Source: a virus. From it: a stretch of DNA of 34,409 bases. How positions within the stretch are numbered: position 1 is the first letter of the stretch; every line of letters starts with the position of its first letter. The stretch is from the IMG/VR virus record IMGVR_UViG_3300025759_000325, positions 1 through 34,409 of that record. One strand, 5' to 3'. A program made the position numbers and the translations under genes. Shown here one piece after another: positions 13,207 through 29,936 of the stretch. Below the pieces are notes generated by a model, which saw nothing but the letters and a program-made list of their open reading frames with translations, did no database searches and was not told the origin of the DNA.

Positions 13207-13725
13207 TCATGCCACGGACGGCATGACTGTCAAGTGGTTGTTGTAATGACCTGTCTCGGCATAGCTATGCATTGGGACGTTTGACATTGCGTGAAACACC
13301 ATCTGACCAATCTTCAGGCCTGGATACAGCGGCAAAGCATGATGCAGCCGTTCATTCTTCAATTCGAGCGTGAGCTTGCTTCCGTGCCAGCCCGGATCGC
13401 ACCAGCCAGCAAGCAGGTGATTAAGACCAGATCGTGCGCGGCTTGACTTGAGTACAAATTGGCAGCTGATGTCGTCGGGCAGGTTAAACAGCTCAAGTGT
13501 CTCAGCCAAGCAAAACTCGCCGGACTGAAGCATGAACGGGTCATCCTCTGTTTTGTCCGCGATGTTGATACGCACCAGATCAGGGCTATAGATGCTTTCC
13601 ACCATCACGTAATCACCCAGCCTCAAGTCCAAACTGGCTGGATTCAGCAGCTCTTCATCGAATGGGACGACCATTTGGCTTTTCCGGCACCGAGCCGAGA
13701 TCTCCCAATCGCACAGAACCGCCAT
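13207..13725 (-). CDS. dcd: dCTP deaminase-like protein (Dcd/dUTPase superfamily)
   Basis: This 172-residue protein matches the Dcd fold: NPASLDLRLGD (28-38), KSSRARSGL (93-101) with the Ser/Arg phosphate ligands, AGWCDPGWHG (106-115) and LTLELKN (118-124), where E121 corresponds to the catalytic glutamate. The enzyme turns dCTP into dUTP, or in bifunctional forms into dUMP, feeding dTTP synthesis and adjusting the nucleotide pool for phage replication. I used ATG 13725 because the family begins near there; the frame stays open upstream to 13824 but that part lacks similarity. Whether it also has dUTPase activity cannot be read from this. Confidence 0.85.
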   Translation of the reverse strand: MAVLCDWEISARCRKSQMVVPFDEELLNPASLDLRLGDYVMVESIYSPDLVRINIADKTEDDPFMLQSGEFCLAETLELFNLPDDISCQFVLKSSRARSGLNHLLAGWCDPGWHGSKLTLELKNERLHHALPLYPGLKIGQMVFHAMSNVPMHSYAETGHYNNHLTVMPSVA

Positions 13726-13851
13726 ATCTGAAACGCAAAAATCAATTTTAAGGCAGGTGAAGACATCGAGCTGCAACCCGTTGCCTTCGCGATCAGTCAA
13801 ACAACGCTTCCCGGCGCAGTTCACTTCTCACGAGAATTCTACTAGCAAAAC

Positions 13852-14601
13852 TCACTCATTCACCAGAATCACCCAACCGGTTCCAGGGCCTTCAGATTGC
13901 CAACGCTGGTAAAACGCAGCCTGTCTTATTCGGACGTTACGTCCCAAATGCGGATTGCTATGGCCACCCTTCTCCATTTCGGGATAGCCACGAGGATCTT
14001 GCATGATCCACTCTGGATCGCTGCTTTTCTTGCCTGCGTAACCACTGATCACGCTCCAATGACCACACCCCAAACCACTGCACATTGGTGGTTCGCCTAA
14101 AAGCATGTTTCCGGCGTGCAACCAGCCAACCAACACTGGCCTGCCAGCTTCGATCTCAAGCTCCACCATGTCAGCATCGCCGTCCTCACGGAACTCAGCT
14201 TCCAAACCCAAGCTTCGCAACGCTGCTAGCTGAGCTTCTACTGACGTGGTGTCCCCGTATTTGGCACGGATCTCGTTGTACTCATCATCCGTCCGAACCT
14301 TCTTGTAAAACGCTGCCACCATCGCAGCTGCTGAGCTGAAGCACTCGCGGTATCCCGTTCCAGTCTTGTTGTCGAGCTGCTTGAAGTAGGGCATGAAGAC
14401 CTGCTGGTCATATCCACTCTCTTTCCACGCCTGAAACCAATCAGCTTCGTGCTCCTCCAGTAGTTCCGGCGGCATTGACTCCTCAAGTTGTTTAATTGCA
14501 GCCAGCTGGTGGGGCGTGCCACGGAAAAACTGGAAAAACGGCAGTAAGGCAAGACCCATGGCCGTCAACAGCAAGGTCAACTGGATAATGCCGGACGCCA
14601 C
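13852..14601 (-). CDS. Membrane-anchored C39-like cysteine peptidase (possible endolysin)
   Basis: This 249-residue protein has a hydrophobic span at residues 5-26 (IIQLTLLLTAMGLALLPFF) and then a papain/C39-type domain with KQLDN (74-78), the catalytic Cys in YRECFSSAAAM (C87), GCGHWSVISGY (H181) and MQDPRG (D202). This domain recurs in marine cyanophages beside a holin-like gene. A lytic role as a signal-anchor endolysin is likely; processing of exported phage proteins is an alternative. The start is GTG at 14601, placed directly after the TAG of the upstream small gene, a strong coupling argument. Confidence 0.75.
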   Translation of the reverse strand: MASGIIQLTLLLTAMGLALLPFFQFFRGTPHQLAAIKQLEESMPPELLEEHEADWFQAWKESGYDQQVFMPYFKQLDNKTGTGYRECFSSAAAMVAAFYKKVRTDDEYNEIRAKYGDTTSVEAQLAALRSLGLEAEFREDGDADMVELEIEAGRPVLVGWLHAGNMLLGEPPMCSGLGCGHWSVISGYAGKKSSDPEWIMQDPRGYPEMEKGGHSNPHLGRNVRIRQAAFYQRWQSEGPGTGWVILVNE

Positions 14602-19388: not shown

Positions 19389-22300
19389 TTAACGAGCAAG
19401 CCCGCCATTGGCTTGGAATGGGTTACTAGCGAACGCTAAATATATGTAGGTCTCTCCATTTAGGTTTATCTCTGACGCCCCATTGTCGCGCAGACAGAAC
19501 CCATTGCTCAAGATGTCAACTCCAAAGTCCGGGGCTGATGCGGTGCTGTTATTTCCACGTTTACCTTCTTGGTTAGTGTTGTTAGCAAACAACGAGTTTA
19601 CATTAACATTATAAGCGGGGGGTCTTTCTGTATCAAATATCGCCCAGCCCGTATAGGCGGGATAAGCAGTAATTGAGACAGTTTTGATCATTATCCACCT
19701 GGGTTGGAAACCGAGGTATTGGAAATTGCGGGCTGAATTACCTTCGTATTTGCCGACGCGACTGTAGCCTGCAACAGACGCAAAGCAGTATGCAATGTGC
19801 TGATCCCCGCTAGAACCAATAGACCCTGCCCTGATGCCAACAGTGGTGCTATCTCTATGGTAAAGATCAGATCCAGAAGTGTGTTTTGCAGCAGTTGTGT
19901 TTAGATATATCTCGTCTCTTACTGGATTATTAAAAACCTCAGAATAAACATTCCAGTCACTTGTGTTGTTGATGCGTTTAACTATGACAAGATCAGGGAC
20001 AACGCCGAGCCCGTGACCCCAGCGATGGCTAGAGGGAGTGTTGTTTCCGTTATTTGTCCACTTTACGATAGAGAATCCAGCAGTTTGATTTGCCCTAACG
20101 GATGAGGTTACGTCGCCATCAGTGTTACTAGCCGTAGATGATGCAGCCACCCAAGACCATGCAACCATTTGAGCTGAGTTAGCATTAACCCCACCAGTAG
20201 CTGTATCAGCTCCTATGCTAAAACCATCAGAGTTAAATGAAGTCAAGGTATCGGTGCTGCTATCTCCGTCTTCGTCGTTGTTTCCGCTTGTCATCAAGCG
20301 TCGCCCAACACCACGAACAGAATCAAACAGGAAATGGTTGTTACCTTGATTTCTAACTTTTAACCACACAAAGTCCGAGGCGTGGCCTGTCGTGATTGAC
20401 TTAGCGGTTTGGTTCCCGCTGTATAAAACCGTTTCAAAATAATCTGAACCATCGGCAATCGTCGGAGTTGGTAACGAAGAAGTATTTAGACACTTGAAGC
20501 CCGTGGGTGCCGTGTAAGCAAAGGGACGTTGGCCAAAATTTACCGCGTAATTAGTGGCTACACCGCCGTTGCCAAAAGAAGGAAAAAGCCCCGCTATTTG
20601 GTGTGATAAAGCGCCCTGAGAAGAATTGTTTTTGTAAAAAGTAATTGTTCCTGCGTCTGCGTCACAAGCACATCCGATAATGTCGCCTAAGGTCCACGTC
20701 GCACCGTATGACTGGTCAGTAACTCCGTCTACGTTTTTAACGCCAGAAGTTGAATACAGAACAGAATTTGAATTCTGATAAATATGTCCAGCTGGTTTAT
20801 GAGCTGCCAAGCCAAGGTTAAGAATGCCTGAGTTAGTCATCTCAGCCTCAAAGTACCATTTTCCTGACGCTGGTATTGCAAATGATGCGTGCTGAGAAGA
20901 GCCAACAGGACACTGACCCTGAAGATTTCCCTGTGATAGTGTTCCACTTACCGCAAGGGGGTTAAGAACGCAGTACCCCCCGCTGACTTCTCCACCCGCA
21001 CCAGTGTCTGACTGATCGCCGTTTGTCGGTACGTCAAACAAGAGATCTAGGTCTCGCCCCGGAAGTCCATTTGTAGGATTGTTTGGCGGTGTGAAGTTGC
21101 TGGTGTACTTAGCAGCGCCGTAAACGCGCAAGTCTTGGATGTAGCCATCAAAATCAAGTTGGCTGCCTAAGTAGTTGCCAATTTGCGCACTATCGCCAGA
21201 AAGGCTATGCGTGAAAGAATGGCTACCACCTTCAACACCATCAACATAAAATTTCAAAGTTCCGCTATTCCTAACAACCGCTACATGCGTCCATTTGCCT
21301 AGTGGAATAGTGCCAGTGGTTCCATAAACAGTAGTAGAACCTGCGTCATAGCGGAGCCTAAAGGGCGCTGTTGTTCCGTCGATAACAAAGGCGTTACTGT
21401 TTACGCTGCCAAACTCAATAAGCCGCCCATAATAATGGCCGTTATCTGTAAATTTGACATACGCTTCAATGGTAAAATTGCCAGTGCCAAACTGGCCTAG
21501 CCCTGTGGCGTTAGATATTACAACTTTGTCACTGTCAAAAAACGCTGCGCTTTGACCGTAAAATTTTGAGTGATCAGTTGTAAAAGTAACGCCTGTGTTG
21601 GTAATTGTATAGCTATTGCCTGATACATCGCTTAAATCTGCGCGCAAGGGCATTGCCAGTTGCAAACTACCAGACAGCGAATCAGTGCGATTTCCAGAAG
21701 CAACAGTTCCGCCATACGTCCCAGTGGTGTTCCGGATAGGCAATGCTCCAGTTGCGTTGGCGATAGAAACATCAGCCCCGGCCGTTGAGCCAACAAGATT
21801 GTTTGCTGTAAATGAATTTGAGTTGCCACTAACGTCAGCGCCTAAATCTGATCCGTCTGCAAAATTAAGATGGAATCCGTTCGTTCCAAATGTTCCGCTG
21901 TAGGCTGCAGCTTGCCAGACTCCGTTGCTGTCAAACGCCCCAAATGATGTGCAATCAAGCTGGGAGCCGTCAATGTTATAAATATCGGCAAAATACTGAC
22001 CACCGTAGCCAGTACCGGCCTGGTTTATCGTATGCAAAGATGCAGAGTTCCAGTTATATGTTGTATTTTGTGCAGGATAAGTTGCAGTAGAAAAAGCGGT
22101 CTCTTGAACGCCATTTGTGTAAAGCTTAATCCTGTTAGATGCAGTCGCCTGGGTAGTATCGACTGCAAGGACTATATGATAAAATGAGCTGAAATCTCTA
22201 TAAACTCTAGAAGTTATTATGCTTGAAAAGCTGTAATGACCGAGCTGAAAATTGTCATTACTGTCAAACAGAAGACTGACAAGTGAATCATTTAATGGGC

Positions 22301-22520
22301 TTCGAGCATCAATTAACGGATTGTATGCACCTGATTTAACCCTTTTAACCCAAAAAGAGATGGTAAAAGTTTTTTGGTTGCCAGCTGAAGACGGAGTTTT
22401 TGAAAGATAAGCCGAATCACCGTCGTCGAAACGAAGCGATTTAGTGGCTATGCCACCAGCCGCAGCAGCAGCAGCAGCAGTTGCCAGCAGCGGAGAAGAA
22501 AGATTGCCGGGAACTGTCAT
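19389..22520 (-). CDS. Large tail fibre with LamG/lectin-like and SPRY-like domains
   Basis: This 1043-residue protein is probably the host-binding fibre. After an N-terminal alanine run (TAAAAAAAGGIATKSLRFDD) come two concanavalin/LamG-like modules (about 28-230, with FTISFWVKRV; about 280-480, with FTIEAYVKFTD and GKWTHVAVVRN), a SPRY-like module (about 515-690, with GKWYFEAEMTN and GDIIGCACDADAGTITFYKN) and a C-terminal domain (about 700-1040) with repeated FVWLKVRNQG and DLVIVKRIN strands of the type seen in cyanophage fibres (DUF7483-like). Such modules bind sugars. Overlaps by one base with the gene upstream. Confidence 0.8.
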   Translation of the reverse strand: MTVPGNLSSPLLATAAAAAAAGGIATKSLRFDDGDSAYLSKTPSSAGNQKTFTISFWVKRVKSGAYNPLIDARSPLNDSLVSLLFDSNDNFQLGHYSFSSIITSRVYRDFSSFYHIVLAVDTTQATASNRIKLYTNGVQETAFSTATYPAQNTTYNWNSASLHTINQAGTGYGGQYFADIYNIDGSQLDCTSFGAFDSNGVWQAAAYSGTFGTNGFHLNFADGSDLGADVSGNSNSFTANNLVGSTAGADVSIANATGALPIRNTTGTYGGTVASGNRTDSLSGSLQLAMPLRADLSDVSGNSYTITNTGVTFTTDHSKFYGQSAAFFDSDKVVISNATGLGQFGTGNFTIEAYVKFTDNGHYYGRLIEFGSVNSNAFVIDGTTAPFRLRYDAGSTTVYGTTGTIPLGKWTHVAVVRNSGTLKFYVDGVEGGSHSFTHSLSGDSAQIGNYLGSQLDFDGYIQDLRVYGAAKYTSNFTPPNNPTNGLPGRDLDLLFDVPTNGDQSDTGAGGEVSGGYCVLNPLAVSGTLSQGNLQGQCPVGSSQHASFAIPASGKWYFEAEMTNSGILNLGLAAHKPAGHIYQNSNSVLYSTSGVKNVDGVTDQSYGATWTLGDIIGCACDADAGTITFYKNNSSQGALSHQIAGLFPSFGNGGVATNYAVNFGQRPFAYTAPTGFKCLNTSSLPTPTIADGSDYFETVLYSGNQTAKSITTGHASDFVWLKVRNQGNNHFLFDSVRGVGRRLMTSGNNDEDGDSSTDTLTSFNSDGFSIGADTATGGVNANSAQMVAWSWVAASSTASNTDGDVTSSVRANQTAGFSIVKWTNNGNNTPSSHRWGHGLGVVPDLVIVKRINNTSDWNVYSEVFNNPVRDEIYLNTTAAKHTSGSDLYHRDSTTVGIRAGSIGSSGDQHIAYCFASVAGYSRVGKYEGNSARNFQYLGFQPRWIMIKTVSITAYPAYTGWAIFDTERPPAYNVNVNSLFANNTNQEGKRGNNSTASAPDFGVDILSNGFCLRDNGASEINLNGETYIYLAFASNPFQANGGLAR

Positions 22521-23344
22521 CAGGAAGCGGCCTTAACGTCCAGGTGTGCTGTGATCATAATCTTTTCGTCAGCCATTACCGCATACGCAAGAACATCTAC
22601 AGCACTTGCAGTAGTCGTCAGAGTCGGCGCAGTACCACCAACAAAGCGATAGTTCGACGAAAAGCTAAGTGTTCTACTGCCCGTGCCGTCTTGATGAACC
22701 TCAATAAATCCTGTCTGGCCTTCAACCACATTTGTTGGGTTGCCTAATGTTCTATTTCCACCGAGAACTAATTTCATATTGTTATTATCATCCATATCGA
22801 TTGCCACAGTTGACGCATCGGTCAACGTTGTGATTGCGCCACGAACACCGCCCGTAACCACCTGACCATTGGTGGTTTCGGTGGCAAGCAGGAAAGAAGC
22901 AAAGCCGAGGTTGCCGCTGGCGTCAGTTTTCAGCGCTTGGTTTGCCGTTCCATCAGCAGAAGGCAGCGTGAACGTGACGTTGCTGGAAACAGTGGCAGGG
23001 GCCTGAAGCGCGACGTAGTTGCTGCTGTCTGCGTCAGCAAAGCGCACATCAGACTGCGCGTTCAGCGTGATGTCACCCGTAAATGTCGCGCCAGACAGGG
23101 CAGCCAAGCCAAAATTGGTCTGGACCGGACCAATAGTGATATACCCGTTATTTGCGGAATTTCTAAGCTTGTAGACAGCAGGGGTCGCTGATGTATCCAC
23201 AAAAGGCTCAAACGCCACCTTTGTGCCACTTGGCTCGCTTGAACCGCTGTTGTTGCTAGCGATGGCAGCCAGCACAGAGTTCAGCTCTGTTCTGAAATTC
23301 GCGCCTGACTGATTACTGAGGGTTTTATCGGTGGATTGAGCCAT
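22520..23344 (-). CDS. Tail fibre/structural protein (274 residues)
   Basis: The N terminus MAQSTDKTLSNQSGANFRTE, LNSVLAAIASNNSG is a pattern shared by many phage fibre or baseplate-linked proteins, probably the part that docks on the tail tip. The middle is beta-rich with GDITLNAQSDVRFADADSS and FTLPSADGTANQALKTDASG, typical of short fibre repeats. It lies between the gpJ-like protein and the large fibre, so it may connect the two. Exact family unknown. Confidence 0.75.
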   Translation of the reverse strand: MAQSTDKTLSNQSGANFRTELNSVLAAIASNNSGSSEPSGTKVAFEPFVDTSATPAVYKLRNSANNGYITIGPVQTNFGLAALSGATFTGDITLNAQSDVRFADADSSNYVALQAPATVSSNVTFTLPSADGTANQALKTDASGNLGFASFLLATETTNGQVVTGGVRGAITTLTDASTVAIDMDDNNNMKLVLGGNRTLGNPTNVVEGQTGFIEVHQDGTGSRTLSFSSNYRFVGGTAPTLTTTASAVDVLAYAVMADEKIMITAHLDVKAAS

Positions 23345-26300
23345 CAGGTGATCTCCTTGCCGTGCCCAACGGCTTGATAGTCGAATGTCCTATTAAGCAC
23401 TGTAGTCGCATCAGCAGCAAGGAACTTGATGGTGAATCCGGTTCTGCTAACGCTGCTCAACTCGAAGTAATCACCCGTTGCCATGTTGGTTGCCGTAATG
23501 GTGATGCTCGGCGTGCTGTAGAAGGCAGACGGGAACGTCACGGCTTTTCCGCTTGAGCTTGTGCCGCTGCTGATGTTGCGCTGCTGCTCTGTGCGGCGCT
23601 GGAGCTTTACTGACACACCCAGGGTTTCGACTACAGGGTCTTGAGATTCGTTCCCCGTCTCCATCTCAACCTTGAACTGGAAACCGCGCCCGCGCTTGGT
23701 TGAGTTTGCGAACGGCTCCCAAGTGCCATAGGTAGGCGATCCGCCAGGGTTGTCGTCCGTCGATCTGACGTACAGCTCAGCATTGGTTTCTGACAAGTCA
23801 TCAGCATCAATGTCATTCCAAACGTCGATTAGCTCACTGCGAGAATCCCAGAAGTCGTCAGGGTTAATCGACTTCATCTGCAAGTTGGCTAGCAGCTCAA
23901 CGTCATAGACAGCGCCCATGTCAAGCGTGTTGGCAAAAATGTAGTTGCCTGTACTTTGAACACCGCCAAAAAAGTCCAAATTGGTAACGGCGTCAAAATC
24001 AGCAATCGAGTCAATCAAGCCTTTGCCTGACAAGGTGATGCCGCCCTCTGTAACACTGTTGAACGACTGCGAAAACGTGCCTGTGAAATTTGGGCTTTCT
24101 GTGTACGTCTGAACAACCTCTAAATCCTGCGGCTCTGGCAGTGCAACTAGAACTTTGGGGATGCCGGACTCAGCTGCATAGTTGTCAACAGAATCTTTTG
24201 CGCGGACAAGGTAGTGCCCACTCAACAAAGGAACAATTTTTCTGGTTGAGCTGCCGTTGACAGCTGGGACAATCTTTTCTGACTGTGACCACTTAATGTC
24301 CCCTGTGGTCCTTGGGTTGTGGCGGATCTCAACCGTTCCGCCGATCTTTACATCAAGGTCAGTTGCTTCAGGCCAGTGCAGCTCAGCAGTGTGCTGATCG
24401 ATTGGCGTGATGTTCAGCGCAGCAATGTTGCTTGGCGCTGTGCTTTTGCCAACGGTCGCAATCGTGCCGACTGTTGGAGCTGAACGCCGCCTGCCTGTTT
24501 GCTCTACGTCTAACCCATAACCAATCGCGGTAACTCTGACTTCGTAAACGCCCCTTTGTGTGTCTGGGATGGAGAACGCAGTGCTAGTGACAAAACGTGA
24601 CTCCGGTGCATCATTGTCAAGGCGGAACTCCACTTGATATTCATTTGCCCTTGGCGACTGCTGCCAACTGACAGCTACACGCTGCAGAACCTTGTCGCCC
24701 TCTTCGTAGAGGATTTCTTCCAACTGCAGGTTGGTTACAGGGTCTGGTTTTTCAGCTAACTGTGTTACGTCACGGGGGCTGAAGCTTTGCTCTGCCTCAA
24801 TAGCTGCATATTTACGGCTGTCGTGCGCTAAGGCTGTTACACCGTAAGTTGCTTCATTTTCGACAACACTTAAGACGCGCCATGTACTTAACAAAAGCTC
24901 GTCGTAACCAATCGTAAAAGCAGAGCCAGCTACAGGCGCACTGTTTAACGTCGAGCCAGGGGTGATTGTGTTGCCAACAATCGTTGATCCACTAACCACC
25001 TGCACTTCATAAATTAACGCCCCTGTTCTGGGATCTGTCTTTGCGGAACCGTCGCCATTCCGACCCTCTGTAATTACATTCAGAACAAAGCTGCTGGGCG
25101 CTTGTGCCCCGAACATGTCAACGTCACTCCGATCCAGCTTGACTGATGTTGTCGTAGAGCCCGAGGAGATACGGCCAGCAACTGTTTTGCCTGCGCGGAC
25201 AGGATCGCTGATCTTGACTAGATCACCTGGCCTAACTGTGATTCCAGCGGCAATGTCAGTCTCAAAGCTGCAAACCTCAGTTTCATGGTGCGCTGTGTAG
25301 AGGAACCATTTGCCTAAACGATTTGCCTGGGCACGACTGGTGCAAGCAAACGCCGTGATATTTTGCTTGTTGTAGCCGTACTTTCTTACTGGCTTGAATG
25401 CTGTATCAGCTAACTCGACAAGCTCGTTAGCAAAGCCTCGAAGGTTGTTGTCAAAGTATTTAACCGAGACACATGTCGGCCGATTTTTCAGGCTTGATCC
25501 TGAGTAACTGAAGCCAGCCTGAGTCACGTTTGACTGGTTAAATGTGTAGGCAAAAACGTCAGGCGCATCCTGAGAAACAGTTATTCCTCCAACTTCCCAG
25601 AAAGGCATTGCCCTGAAAACAGAGCACATTTCCTGAATCAGCTTGAAAGCGTCCGCCTGTGTTTGCAGGAGAACATTGCAGCTAAATCGTGGTTCGCCTT
25701 CGATCAGCTCTCCACAGTATTCGCTAGCTTTTTTGAAGCTATACAGGTCAAGATTGCTAGCAGTATCAGACGCACCATTGAAGTTACCCGCAGCATCTTT
25801 GGCCCGCTCTTCTGGTGTAAGAACTTGCGAGCCTAATCCGTACCTAGTGGATGTCAACAAGTCATAAAGTATAAACGGGGGATCTGTTGTCCATTCTCTA
25901 GTTGTTTTTAACGTGCCATTAAAAGGCGTACTGGCGTCGTACTCCAACGATCCATCAGCACGCACTGTTGCGTTGTGTGGGATGCGCACTTTAATTCCCC
26001 GTATCTTGTAACTACGTTGCGGAATACTTGGGAACTGCTGAGCATCAAATTTAAGACCGACAACAGCACTGTTTGGGTATCGCGTCTTTTCGCCAACCCT
26101 TTCTGTGTAGTCGTACCAAATCAAGTCATCCGTTTTAGACACAGTGTCGTCATGGAACTCATGACCAGTTCTTGTCAACCGAATATCAACAGGGAAAGCA
26201 GTGCCTGCTTGGACTTTTGCCTCATCTAAAATAATGAGATGCCTTCGCTGATACAGGTCAGGTGAATAGCCTTTGAGCTGAAATTCGCCGTTGCCCAGAT

Positions 26301-26931
26301 AGCTGTCGTAGAAATCAAAATCACCAAAATCAACAGGGCTGTAGCCGTTGCCTTGGTATTGAATTTCAACCTTGTAGGAGATATGCACGGCTCTTACCCT
26401 GCCGTCATCTTTCGCCACCGTCATGGACGGAGAGCCAATCGTGATACGAACGCTTGTCACGTCGGTATCAGTAATTTGCCGGGTCACTGGCGTTGCTGTT
26501 GCCCCTGCCGCTACATCTTTATCAGTTCTGCTTGTTGAGCCGCCATAGAGAAAAAAGTTGCCTTCATTGTCGCCAATGTCAGCTTTCGTAAGCTCGGCAT
26601 TTACTACAAGTGTTTTTTGGTTAAGTATCCCAATGCTTTGCAGGTTTGTTTGCGTTTGCGTGCCCAAGCGACTTTCAAACGTCGCATCACGCATATCAAA
26701 ATTCATCTGTTCAATAATACTTGCATCTGTTTTCTTGCTGGTTGCAGTAACAGTGGCGCTAGCACCAAGCACAGGCGTGTTATTAAAAAACGTATCTTTG
26801 AGAGACGCCAAGTTGTAGGCTTCCGATCCAACAGTCAAACCGCTTGCAGACGGGAAGCCCTCAATTTCGCCTTCACTCAGCAGGTCAACGAGCCTGGCAA
26901 CCTGTCTTGACTCAAGATTATCCTTGGGCAT
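23344..26931 (-). CDS. Tail tip/host specificity protein (lambda gpJ-like)
   Basis: At 1195 residues this is close to gpJ of lambda (1132). It begins MPKDNLESRQVARLVDLLSE, GEIEGFPS, the usual gpJ opening, followed by NTPVLGASA and long beta-rich hub domains, the tail_3-type region (RGIKVRIPHNATVRADGS; WTTDPPFILYDLLTSTRYGL; EPRFSCNVLLQTQADAFKLI), fibronectin type III-like modules near residues 730-920 (LQRVAVSWQQSPRANEYQVE), and a C-terminal FITIKF/WDSRSELIDVWNDI region. The protein forms the tail-tip hub and central fibre. Gene order L-K-I-J is conserved. Confidence 0.9.
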   Translation of the reverse strand: MPKDNLESRQVARLVDLLSEGEIEGFPSASGLTVGSEAYNLASLKDTFFNNTPVLGASATVTATSKKTDASIIEQMNFDMRDATFESRLGTQTQTNLQSIGILNQKTLVVNAELTKADIGDNEGNFFLYGGSTSRTDKDVAAGATATPVTRQITDTDVTSVRITIGSPSMTVAKDDGRVRAVHISYKVEIQYQGNGYSPVDFGDFDFYDSYLGNGEFQLKGYSPDLYQRRHLIILDEAKVQAGTAFPVDIRLTRTGHEFHDDTVSKTDDLIWYDYTERVGEKTRYPNSAVVGLKFDAQQFPSIPQRSYKIRGIKVRIPHNATVRADGSLEYDASTPFNGTLKTTREWTTDPPFILYDLLTSTRYGLGSQVLTPEERAKDAAGNFNGASDTASNLDLYSFKKASEYCGELIEGEPRFSCNVLLQTQADAFKLIQEMCSVFRAMPFWEVGGITVSQDAPDVFAYTFNQSNVTQAGFSYSGSSLKNRPTCVSVKYFDNNLRGFANELVELADTAFKPVRKYGYNKQNITAFACTSRAQANRLGKWFLYTAHHETEVCSFETDIAAGITVRPGDLVKISDPVRAGKTVAGRISSGSTTTSVKLDRSDVDMFGAQAPSSFVLNVITEGRNGDGSAKTDPRTGALIYEVQVVSGSTIVGNTITPGSTLNSAPVAGSAFTIGYDELLLSTWRVLSVVENEATYGVTALAHDSRKYAAIEAEQSFSPRDVTQLAEKPDPVTNLQLEEILYEEGDKVLQRVAVSWQQSPRANEYQVEFRLDNDAPESRFVTSTAFSIPDTQRGVYEVRVTAIGYGLDVEQTGRRRSAPTVGTIATVGKSTAPSNIAALNITPIDQHTAELHWPEATDLDVKIGGTVEIRHNPRTTGDIKWSQSEKIVPAVNGSSTRKIVPLLSGHYLVRAKDSVDNYAAESGIPKVLVALPEPQDLEVVQTYTESPNFTGTFSQSFNSVTEGGITLSGKGLIDSIADFDAVTNLDFFGGVQSTGNYIFANTLDMGAVYDVELLANLQMKSINPDDFWDSRSELIDVWNDIDADDLSETNAELYVRSTDDNPGGSPTYGTWEPFANSTKRGRGFQFKVEMETGNESQDPVVETLGVSVKLQRRTEQQRNISSGTSSSGKAVTFPSAFYSTPSITITATNMATGDYFELSSVSRTGFTIKFLAADATTVLNRTFDYQAVGHGKEIT

Positions 26932-27542
26932 TACTCAAGCTCCTCGACGTTCAGGCCAGCCGATACAACAACACTACCGACGATCACCTCTCCGTAGGCA
27001 ACCGGGACGGGGACGCCTTCTCTGCCAACGTTTTGAATGCCGGAAAAGCTGAAGTTGTTGCGCGGATCGTTGTCTGTCTCAGGTGTAGGCACTGTGGGCG
27101 ATAGCAGGCCAGCAACGCCGACTAAAGCTAGTCCGATACCAATGTTGCCTACTGCTGCAGATATGCCTGCACCGCCAGAAAAACCAGTTAAACCCAAGCT
27201 AAGCGAAGCACCGCCAGTAGCAAACGCCAAACCGACCAAAGCAAAACCAGCAAGAGCAAGGACAATGTTTCTGAATGGATTAGCCCCGGTCACAACAGGA
27301 ATAATCCTGATGTCATCGTCAACCATTAACGGGTAGCTGAGCTGTTCTGGAGATTGCCCTAGCTCCAGCGTATGCGGACCAACGCAAACGGTGTAGTAAC
27401 CCTCGCCCATGACTGAGCGCAGCTCAGGGAAGTTGCACAACAAAAACCGGATTGCCTCAGCCGGTGTCCTCGCTACCGCTTCAAAAACTTTCTGACCGCA
27501 GTGCTCCGCCAGGTGCCCATACAGCCTGATTTTGCGAAGCAT
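26931..27542 (-). CDS. Tail assembly protein (lambda gpI-like)
   Basis: This 203-residue protein has an N-terminal beta-grasp-like domain (MLRKIRLYGHLAEHCGQKVF, EAVARTPAEAIRFLLCNFPE), a central Gly/Ala-rich hydrophobic stretch (NIVLALAGFALVGLAFATGG to VGVAGLLSP) and the conserved C-terminal tail GIQNVGREGVPVPVAYGEVI. These are the hallmarks of gpI. ATG 27542 was chosen over the GTG at 27551. It precedes gpJ and follows the JAB-domain gene, as in lambda. The protein is needed to assemble the tail tip but is not found in the lambda virion. Confidence 0.88.
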   Translation of the reverse strand: MLRKIRLYGHLAEHCGQKVFEAVARTPAEAIRFLLCNFPELRSVMGEGYYTVCVGPHTLELGQSPEQLSYPLMVDDDIRIIPVVTGANPFRNIVLALAGFALVGLAFATGGASLSLGLTGFSGGAGISAAVGNIGIGLALVGVAGLLSPTVPTPETDNDPRNNFSFSGIQNVGREGVPVPVAYGEVIVGSVVVSAGLNVEELE

Positions 27543-27580
27543 TGCCGTCACTCGCCATGCCCTTTGATTCTACCGATGAC

Positions 27581-27901
27581 TCAAGGGTCGATCTTTAGCC
27601 AGCTTTGATCTTCCATTCCATAGATAAACCACGGCAGACCGTATTGAGTGCAAGCCTTTTTGTCGGGCTTGCTGGGCAATGCAGGCGCGCCGGGATGACT
27701 ATGGACAACAGCAAGCACCTTGCCGGTGTCTTCTGCAGCCGCATAGCCCATAGGGTCAAGGACAAAAACGTCATCCTCATTGCTTAGGTTCTTGCACGGC
27801 CAATAGTGCTCAGCGCCGTCAAGCATGACAAGCAATCCGCAAGACTCCTTTGGCGCTTCCGCTTCAGCGTGCTGCACTGCAGCCTTTTGCCAATCTTCCA
27901 T
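27581..27901 (-). CDS. JAB/MPN metalloprotease-like tail protein (gpK N-domain)
   Basis: The 106-residue protein carries a full JAMM motif: PKESCGLL with E19, HSHPGAP (H67, H69), S77 and D80 in LPSKPD. It corresponds to the first domain of lambda gpK; the NlpC/P60 hydrolase domain that usually follows is absent, so cell-wall cutting is not expected from this gene. It starts directly after gpL (1-base overlap) and precedes gpI. Confidence 0.88.
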   Translation of the reverse strand: MEDWQKAAVQHAEAEAPKESCGLLVMLDGAEHYWPCKNLSNEDDVFVLDPMGYAAAEDTGKVLAVVHSHPGAPALPSKPDKKACTQYGLPWFIYGMEDQSWLKIDP

Positions 27902-29598
27902 CAGTTGTTCAAACCAACAGAGGGGAACGACCCAAACGGCAAGCCACCGTTTGCATCACCGCTAGGAAAACGTTTACGGCAATCACTGATCCGCTTGCCA
28001 CACACGTCAGCGTCTACAGAAGGTGTTTTCGTTACCTGCTCAACTTTCGGCTCTGTCGTGATGGGATCGTTTGACGAAGACCATGTGACATCGCTGCCGT
28101 CAGAGTCTTCAACCACTAGAACGCCATCATCTTTTAGGCGTAGCTGCTTTGCATTTAAGAAACCAGTAGCAGTGACTTTGTATCCAGCTCCAACTTCTTG
28201 CAAGGTTCCATCTGTCGGATGGTTGTCGCGGAATGGGTTGTTAGACGTGATAGGGACTTTTGCAATCCAATCTTCCTTGTCCTTCCAAAGGCCAGTCTGG
28301 CTGTTGATCGTGATGCCTGTAATCGTGTTCCAGCCAAAGCCTGTGTAGTTGTTGTTGCTCGCTGAGTAGTGACCAGCGGGCAATGCAATAGAGGTGAGGT
28401 TGAAGGTGATGTTGACAGAGCGGCTGCCGTACTCAGGATGCGTCTCAGTAAAGTTCTTTGTTGCCGTTGTGGTCTGCCCTGCAGCTGAGGGGCTGCTTCC
28501 TTTCAGCTCCCAAGTAAACGCGCCAGATTTGCCACTCACAGTGTCAAGCGGATACCACTGATCCGCGCCGTCAATGTTTAGTCGAGTTAGTGCCGAGATC
28601 TGTCCCAGCCTATTAGTATCGGAGCCAGTCCAAACAACAGAGCCGCCAGCGTAATCACTTCGGGCTACATCGTCGTTGTAAAGGACAAGGTTGCCATCCT
28701 TTTGCATCACCAGCGTGTAGCCATTGGCGTTTCTGCCAATGTTTGTTTCAGACGACCAGACCGCGTTTGCTGGGATCTTTTCTGGCTTTCTGTAAACAAC
28801 AAAGTTTCCGTCAGCCTGTACTACAGCAGCAAACCAACCGTTAGTCGAGACAAGCTCATTGCCCTCAGTCAGCGATGAATCTGCGGTCAGTTTTTCTTGG
28901 TTCGTTGAGTATCCAAAACCTGTGGCGGCAACCAAGGTTATTTGCTCTCCTGCCACGTCAAAAGCGTTAGAGCCGCTGTAACCACACTCTTTGCTTTTGT
29001 ACTCCCACTGGCAGAGGTTCTGCATCACAAGGCGGCGCGGTGCCTTTGTGTTCGCCATATCAAACGACGACACCAGCTCAAACTCAACAAAATCTCTGTT
29101 CTCAGCAACCTTGCGATCGATGTAGTAAACCTCTTCCGGGAACTGTGCATTAGCCCCAGAGTCGGGGTTGCCGTAGGGATTAACGCCGTTCTCCCAGTTG
29201 TCGCTATCGAGAAAACGGCTCAGAGTGCGGATCCGTTTTACCCTTGCACCACTTAAATCATTGCCTGGCGTGATTTGGTTTACGCCTAGCAGCAAAGCCG
29301 TCATTTGGCTCTGCAGGTTTGCAATGCGGATTGATGGCCTGGGTAACGTGCCATCACCGTTAAATTCAAACCCTGATGCCTCTACAGGCAAAGGGATGTA
29401 AGGCGTGCCGCCAAATTTAATTGAGAAAGCATCGACAATATCGTCTGCATCAGTCGGCACAGTCGTCTTGCGATTCCGACCTGCATGGAAGTAATACTCT
29501 TCATCAGAGCCGTGCAGATCTTGAAACAGCTTCAACTCAAACAGCTCAATGATTGCAAAAGGGCCGGAGTTGAGAAGCTCAACAAAAGCAGTGCTCAT
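27901..29598 (-). CDS. Minor tail protein (gpL-like) with inserted bulb-type lectin module
   Basis: The N-terminal 210 residues match gpL (FELKLFQDLH, YYIDRKVAENRDFVEFELVS, APRRLVMQNLCQWEY, KSKECGYSG) and the last 40 residues match its end (DADVCGKRISDCRKRF, LPFGSFPSVG). The four Cys (196, 205, 533, 540) fit the Fe-S ligands of lambda gpL. Between them lies an insert of about 315 residues that contains two clear bulb-lectin repeats QADGNFVVY (261-269) and QKDGNLVLY (299-307), plus a degenerate third (LRLKDDGVLVVED, 486-498). The protein is 565 residues against about 230 for lambda gpL. Confidence 0.88.
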   Translation of the reverse strand: MSTAFVELLNSGPFAIIELFELKLFQDLHGSDEEYYFHAGRNRKTTVPTDADDIVDAFSIKFGGTPYIPLPVEASGFEFNGDGTLPRPSIRIANLQSQMTALLLGVNQITPGNDLSGARVKRIRTLSRFLDSDNWENGVNPYGNPDSGANAQFPEEVYYIDRKVAENRDFVEFELVSSFDMANTKAPRRLVMQNLCQWEYKSKECGYSGSNAFDVAGEQITLVAATGFGYSTNQEKLTADSSLTEGNELVSTNGWFAAVVQADGNFVVYRKPEKIPANAVWSSETNIGRNANGYTLVMQKDGNLVLYNDDVARSDYAGGSVVWTGSDTNRLGQISALTRLNIDGADQWYPLDTVSGKSGAFTWELKGSSPSAAGQTTTATKNFTETHPEYGSRSVNITFNLTSIALPAGHYSASNNNYTGFGWNTITGITINSQTGLWKDKEDWIAKVPITSNNPFRDNHPTDGTLQEVGAGYKVTATGFLNAKQLRLKDDGVLVVEDSDGSDVTWSSSNDPITTEPKVEQVTKTPSVDADVCGKRISDCRKRFPSGDANGGLPFGSFPSVGLNN

Positions 29599-29936
29599 GG
29601 CTCAATAACTTGCTGGAACGTTGCGGTCAGCTGATTAAGTCCAGCAGATGTCATCTGCTTCGACCACTGCTGGCAAATCCACTTGTAAGTGTCAGTGTCG
29701 TCTGGTGGCGACCAATCAAAATGCTCAGCCCCACCGCGTGCCTCAAGGAACGTCTCAATGGTGTCAGAGTCTGTCTCGCTGATGTTCTCCCAGGTCAGAT
29801 TCCACACCTTGAGATCTGTGTTTAAGCCATAGCGCAAGCGTTGGCTGTAGCCATCCCCAAACTGCACGTTGCGCACAGTCGGTTGACTCGTCTTAGTCGC
29901 CCCGAAATTGGGGTCAATAGAAGGAAACGTTGCCAT
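29595..29936 (-). CDS. Minor tail protein (lambda gpM-like)
   Basis: The 113-residue protein shows the gpM pattern: FPSIDPNFGATKTSQPTVRN, VQFGDGYSQRLRYGLNT, WNLTWENISETDSDTIETFL, ARGGAEHFDWSPP and an ending TATFQQVI. The protein belongs to the tail-tip complex between tape measure and gpL. It overlaps gpL by four bases and abuts the tape measure gene. Confidence 0.88.
   Translation of the reverse strand: MATFPSIDPNFGATKTSQPTVRNVQFGDGYSQRLRYGLNTDLKVWNLTWENISETDSDTIETFLEARGGAEHFDWSPPDDTDTYKWICQQWSKQMTSAGLNQLTATFQQVIEP

Follow-up and report, generated by a model that had tools for sequence, protein, structure and literature searches.

A B-lectin interrupted by a nested domain lies between the cysteine pairs of a lambda gpL-type tail-tip protein in a clade of uncultured aquatic phages

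Results

The analyzed window was a 34,409-nucleotide stretch of viral DNA, corresponding to positions 1–34,409 of the IMG/VR record IMGVR_UViG_3300025759_000325. All window features given below are on the minus strand. The ORF at 27901–29598 encodes a protein of 565 residues, and it overlaps its neighbouring genes by a few bases. It is placed in a lambda-type M-L-K-I-J tail cluster, between a gpM-like minor tail protein (29595–29936; Pfam Phage_min_tail, 1.5e-28) and the K-I-J genes. The latter encode a gpK-like protein (27581–27901; Prok-JAB, 3e-17; phrog_30), a gpI-like tail assembly or plug protein (26931–27551; phrog_32, 1e-39), and a gpJ-like central fibre (23344–26931; phrog_31 central tail fiber J, 1e-145). 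The gpK homologue has only 106 residues and consists of the JAB domain alone; the relative in L065 is longer (233 residues).

The 565-residue protein matched Pfam Phage_tail_L (PF05100) with an E-value of 1e-40 and a score of 139.7 bits (cut-off 25), and the phrog_18 minor tail protein at 1e-62. Sequence matches to solved gpL proteins included lambda gpL (8iyk_L) and an F-type pyocin. Two AlphaFold models were generated. The first, built with 21 close relatives, had a mean pLDDT of 57.8, and no conclusions were drawn from it. The second had a mean pLDDT of 81.3, with values mostly between 83 and 97 for residues 220–510. Its pTM was only 0.46, therefore the relative placement of the domains is unreliable. 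This model matched lambda gpL 8iyk_L by fold (E = 2e-13, prob 1.00). The protein is a lambda gpL-type hub protein. Its HDI (attachment) domain, residues 1–185 (29044–29598), aligned with the lambda gpL, T1, and F2-pyocin hubs, and was modeled with pLDDT values mostly of 70–88.

The protein contains four cysteines only, at positions 196, 205, 533, and 540. These form a C-x8-C and a C-x6-C pair, separated by 327 residues (206–532). The first half of the Cys4 domain, with Cys196 and Cys205 (residues 186–215; 28954–29043), aligned with lambda gpL CTWTYRGDECGY. The second half, with Cys533 and Cys540 (residues 531–565; 27904–28008), gave a second Phage_tail_L stretch and aligned with lambda gpL, T1, F2-pyocin, and gp21. 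Against the hub chains of the same four systems, a profile of 75 gpL proteins yielded two aligned segments flanking the insert. All four cysteines were invariant columns in this profile (75/75; 43 proteins with the insert and 32 without it) and in all of the 70 lectin-bearing lineages. The insert is thus located exactly between Cys205 and Cys533, within the Cys4 domain, as the earlier note had proposed. Lambda gpL has 232 residues and its cysteines are at 173, 182, 205, and 212 (PMC10721106). It shares the HDI domain, the C-x8-C and C-x6-C pairs, and the M-L-K-I-J order with the window protein, but only 22 residues lie between its cysteine pairs and it carries no lectin. The window protein is 333 residues longer, close to the 335 estimated previously. 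By analogy with the solved split-domain homologues of RcGTA, R4C, and JBD30, the four cysteines may converge on one [4Fe-4S] cluster; the cysteine segments themselves were modeled with low confidence (pLDDT about 41–70).

The insert contains B-lectin repeats 1 and 2, residues 235–330 (28609–28896). These carry two canonical sugar motifs, QADGNFVVY at residues 261–269 (28792–28818) and QKDGNLVLY at residues 299–307 (28678–28704). Repeat 3, residues 476–512 (28063–28173), has a degenerate motif in the window protein, LRLKDDGVLVVE, around residues 486–497. The two canonical repeats and the degenerate third one had been recognized correctly from the sequence. According to composition-preserving shuffles, the chance of finding even one QxDGNxVxY in the insert is p about 5e-5. 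A linker, residues 513–530 (28009–28062), leads back to the core and is the least conserved segment, with a mean pairwise identity of 42%.

The profile and fold comparisons suggested in the earlier note both pointed to a lectin. The full window protein scored 30.3 bits against Pfam B_lectin (PF01453), just below the curated cut-off of 32.4, yet 43/43 non-redundant members matched B_lectin inside the insert (E ≤ 1, best 5e-9). The insert profile matched solved B-lectins with E-values from 2e-18 to 1e-12; the best match was the mycobacterial lectin 4oit (2e-18), and plant and pyocin lectins followed at about 1e-15 to 1e-12. Foldseek aligned the model with garlic lectin 1bwu_P (prob 1.00, 2.3 Å over 93 columns), which has the predicted beta-prism II fold. 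The insert between the cysteine pairs contains a bulb-type (monocot-type) B-lectin.

The description of the insert as a bulb-type lectin was incomplete. The lectin is present according to both profile and fold, but it accounts for no more than about 133 residues of the 327-residue insert, and its repeat 3 is parted from repeats 1 and 2 by a domain of about 145 residues. This nested beta-rich domain, residues 331–475 (28174–28608), was predicted to comprise six strands and one helix, with pLDDT values mostly of 66–97. Its length was between 129 and 151 residues in 44/44 aligned lineages. The PDB sequence search gave no match for it (best E 0.1), and neither a confident Pfam family nor an informative PHROG was obtained.

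When the nested part was removed from the lectin profile, the spliced profile aligned over the junction with pyocin L1, pyocin L2, and putidacin L1 in an unbroken manner. The B_lectin score of the window protein after the same removal was 35.6 bits. Three relatives (L462, L464, and L466) contain three strict QxDxNxVxY motifs each, the third being at the repeat-3 columns. In these proteins, 33 residues separate the first motif from the second, and the third is found 182–192 residues further on. The central Trp triad described for B-lectins (PMC6240691) is retained with one Trp per repeat: W281 in 68/70, W323 in 70/70, and W506 in 64/70 lineages. In the AlphaFold model, the predicted strands at 484–498 echo the pattern of repeats 1 and 2. 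On the basis of the spliced-profile alignment, the three-motif relatives, the Trp triad, and the predicted strands, we conclude that the insert consists of two domains, a B-lectin split by a second domain. By homology, repeat 3 would pack onto repeats 1 and 2. Such double nesting, with one domain inside another that is itself inside a third, is unusual.

We counted the strict sugar motif, defined as QxDxNxVxY, in the 70 lineages. Nine proteins had none, 15 had one, 43 had two, and three had three; at least one motif was found in 61/70 lineages, and two was the commonest state. In repeats 1 and 2, the residues predicted to contact the sugar (Q, D, N, and Y) had a top-residue frequency of 86%, as compared with 58% for the other columns of these repeats. 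This conservation supports sugar binding but does not prove it, because the same residues are important for the structure as well.

At least 145 confirmed loci with the insert were found in IMG/VR, and the insert was in frame in 176 full-length ORFs among the fetched loci, several of which overlap. Among the 80 gpL loci nearest to the most divergent member, the lectin was present in each one whose contig covered enough of the protein. The clade in which it is fixed occurs in many separate IMG/VR samples. A quick tree of the gpL core, calculated without the insert, placed the 43 lectin-bearing proteins in one group (SH-aLRT 99) with one change. On this tree, the lectin was gained once, and it is fixed in a large clade of uncultured aquatic phages. 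Mean pairwise identity was 70% for the HDI core, 52% for lectin repeats 1 and 2, and 47% for the nested domain.

The insert alone, used as a tblastn query against 50,697 phage records, yielded no match at E 0.01. A lectin-only query matched two Pseudomonas phages; the match in Riah is a hypothetical protein outside the tail genes. Its plasmid matches, largely from actinobacteria, were to bacterial lectins, to LysM-type proteins, or to proteins without a name, and none of them carried a phage tail annotation. BFVD already holds one uncultured phage protein, gpL or otherwise, named 'Bulb-type lectin domain containing protein'.

The nearest isolated relatives, as judged from terminase, J, and gpL, were mainly the cyanophages S-2L, MED4-117/184, and S-H1, with about 34–44% identity. 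A picocyanobacterial host is only suggested by this resemblance. The only locus from a bacterial genome whose gpL start matched, a MAG contig carrying gpL and the start of the lectin (L211:1391-2614), was considered for host assignment and rejected; it breaks inside the lectin beside unrelated bacterial genes and is probably a mis-assembly.

Discussion

The position of the insert has precedents among tail hubs. In the RcGTA hub g13, the ion-binding segments 143–167 and 250–263 flank an oligosaccharide-binding domain at 168–249 (PMC7296036). The R4C hub has the same layout, with segments 142–161 and 244–266 around a domain at 162–243 (PMC10276861). Both resemble the window protein in their two-segment ion-binding domain, with a putative oligosaccharide-binding domain between the segments. 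They differ in the inserted domain, which has about 82 residues and an oligosaccharide-binding (OB) fold, whereas the window insert has 327 residues and combines a B-lectin with a nested domain lacking a family match, rather than an OB-type fold. In the upper baseplate protein gp50 of JBD30, Cys147, Cys156, Cys238, and Cys245 coordinate one putative metal ion (PMC11445458). The coordination spans a gap of 81 residues between the cysteine pairs; the insert is smaller than that of the window protein, and no B-lectin has been reported in it.

In cyanophages, the same slot is occupied by a 246–274-residue insert in S-CBS4 gp036 and its relatives (L209:2462-3859), and by a 181-residue insert in the S-2L gpL protein S-2L_46 (L492:3847-5154). 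Unlike the window insert, these have no lectin motif. On either side they are bordered by long stretches whose sequence looks helical and which may represent stalks. The S-CBS4-type insert proteins formed one clade in the gpL-core tree. The other gpL relatives have roughly 16–39 residues between the cysteine pairs. In Prochlorococcus phage MED4-184 (L208:2483-3055) and a related viral contig (L313:2016-2549), gpL stops after the HDI domain and has no Cys4 domain. The gpL relative of Marine virus AG-345-A17 (L065:5001-5993) also lacks Cys4; it has a different insert in the HDI domain, of cupredoxin-like appearance and with Thr-rich linkers. The C-terminal region of gpL has been described as a focus of hypervariability, presumably near the cell wall (PMC13243795).

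The lectin-like bacteriocins pyocin L1 and putidacin L1 share the B-lectin fold, the QxDxNxVxY sites, and the Trp triad with the insert, and with these they bind bacterial surface sugar. They are, however, free-standing, uninterrupted tandem lectins outside any virion. In the evolved Dit and Tal proteins of Gram-positive phages, a loop of the conserved tail-tip protein likewise accommodates a carbohydrate-binding module (PMC7291167), but the carrier is Dit or Tal, not an Fe-S hub, and the modules have other folds. In the open-access literature searched, no paper on a bulb-type lectin together with a phage was found, only papers on lectin-like bacteriocins. Since the slot is already filled in RcGTA, R4C, JBD30, S-2L, and S-CBS4, the novelty appears to be limited to the lectin occupant and its nesting.

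These observations led us to a functional proposal. We consider it probable that the lectin in the Cys4 loop serves as an auxiliary surface-glycan adhesin on a gpL-type hub. This reading is supported by the gpL family assignment and synteny, the invariant flanking cysteines, the lectin profile and fold matches, and the conservation of the contact residues. It is also supported by the putative sugar-binding domain in the same slot of RcGTA and R4C, and by lambda, whose tip contains three gpL molecules with their Fe-S domains on the exterior (PMC10721106). The identity of the protein, the place of the insert, its homology to lectins, the split of the lectin, and the single origin are results of the analysis, whereas the display of the lectin, its copy number, and how, when, and on which host it would bind sugar are inferred. 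By analogy with lambda, the tip would carry three lectin copies around its outer flank, close to the host cell and with two canonical mannose-type sites apiece. The lectins would grip surface glycans, such as LPS O-antigen, capsule, or slime, probably in a reversible manner. This grip may orient the tip, and the gpJ fibre would then engage its receptor. The Fe-S clasp would allow the insert to exit from the hub fold and rejoin it, leaving the trimeric core undisturbed.

The nine lineages without a strict motif and the degenerate repeat 3 of the window protein count against the adhesin reading. B-lectin folds are sometimes structural, or they bind proteins or other sugars. The insert might accordingly be a structural or docking module that has lost sugar binding in most members, and may attach a side fibre, e.g., the 19389–22520 protein, or brace gpJ. 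The fold is retained even in the lineages devoid of strict motifs, and the nested domain keeps a steady length throughout the 44 aligned lineages, which points to constraint from a role in assembly. On the other hand, the sugar-contact positions are the better conserved part of the lectin, and two canonical motifs are the commonest state (43/70). We regard a structural or docking function as unlikely.

The lectin could instead bind environmental polysaccharide (slime, aggregates, or mucus) and keep the virions near their hosts. Mannose-type specificity is broad, and the fixation of the lectin across many separate IMG/VR samples would fit such a role. The three tip copies expected from lambda are below the numbers known for capsid decoration, however, and the tip position favours a host-proximal function, which leaves this explanation distinctly improbable. 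An intein-like in-protein parasite, or a sequencing or assembly chimera absent from the mature protein, is barely credible: the length of the insertion and its precise placement between conserved residues would be in line with it, but the insert is in frame in the 176 ORFs and inherited as one clade, Pfam shows no intein family, and the independent contigs refute an assembly artefact.

Beyond the proposed adhesin function, the split Cys4 domain of siphophage hubs might be a general exchange socket, stapled by metal, for adhesion modules that are unrelated from lineage to lineage, i.e., an OB domain, a helical stalk with a head, or a nested lectin. The ligand signal of the module could then open the tip through the Fe-S clasp. 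We find this extended proposal rather improbable. If true, the tip-opening signal would give the Fe-S cluster a role, which is an open question for gpL (PMC10721106). The occurrence of unrelated large modules in one gpL loop leads to the testable proposal that the cluster staples a display socket. The insert also offers a sequence handle on auxiliary host binding in phages that have no cultured representative.

Further likely binding modules are found in the ORF at 19389–22520, which encodes a 1043-residue fibre-like protein with Laminin_G_3, SPRY, and DUF7483 domains. The C-terminus of the J protein (23344–26931), residues 1130–1187, gave a weak H-type lectin match (E 0.018). A dCTP deaminase-like protein (13207–13824) adjoins a C39/C70-type papain-like cysteine peptidase (13852–14601).
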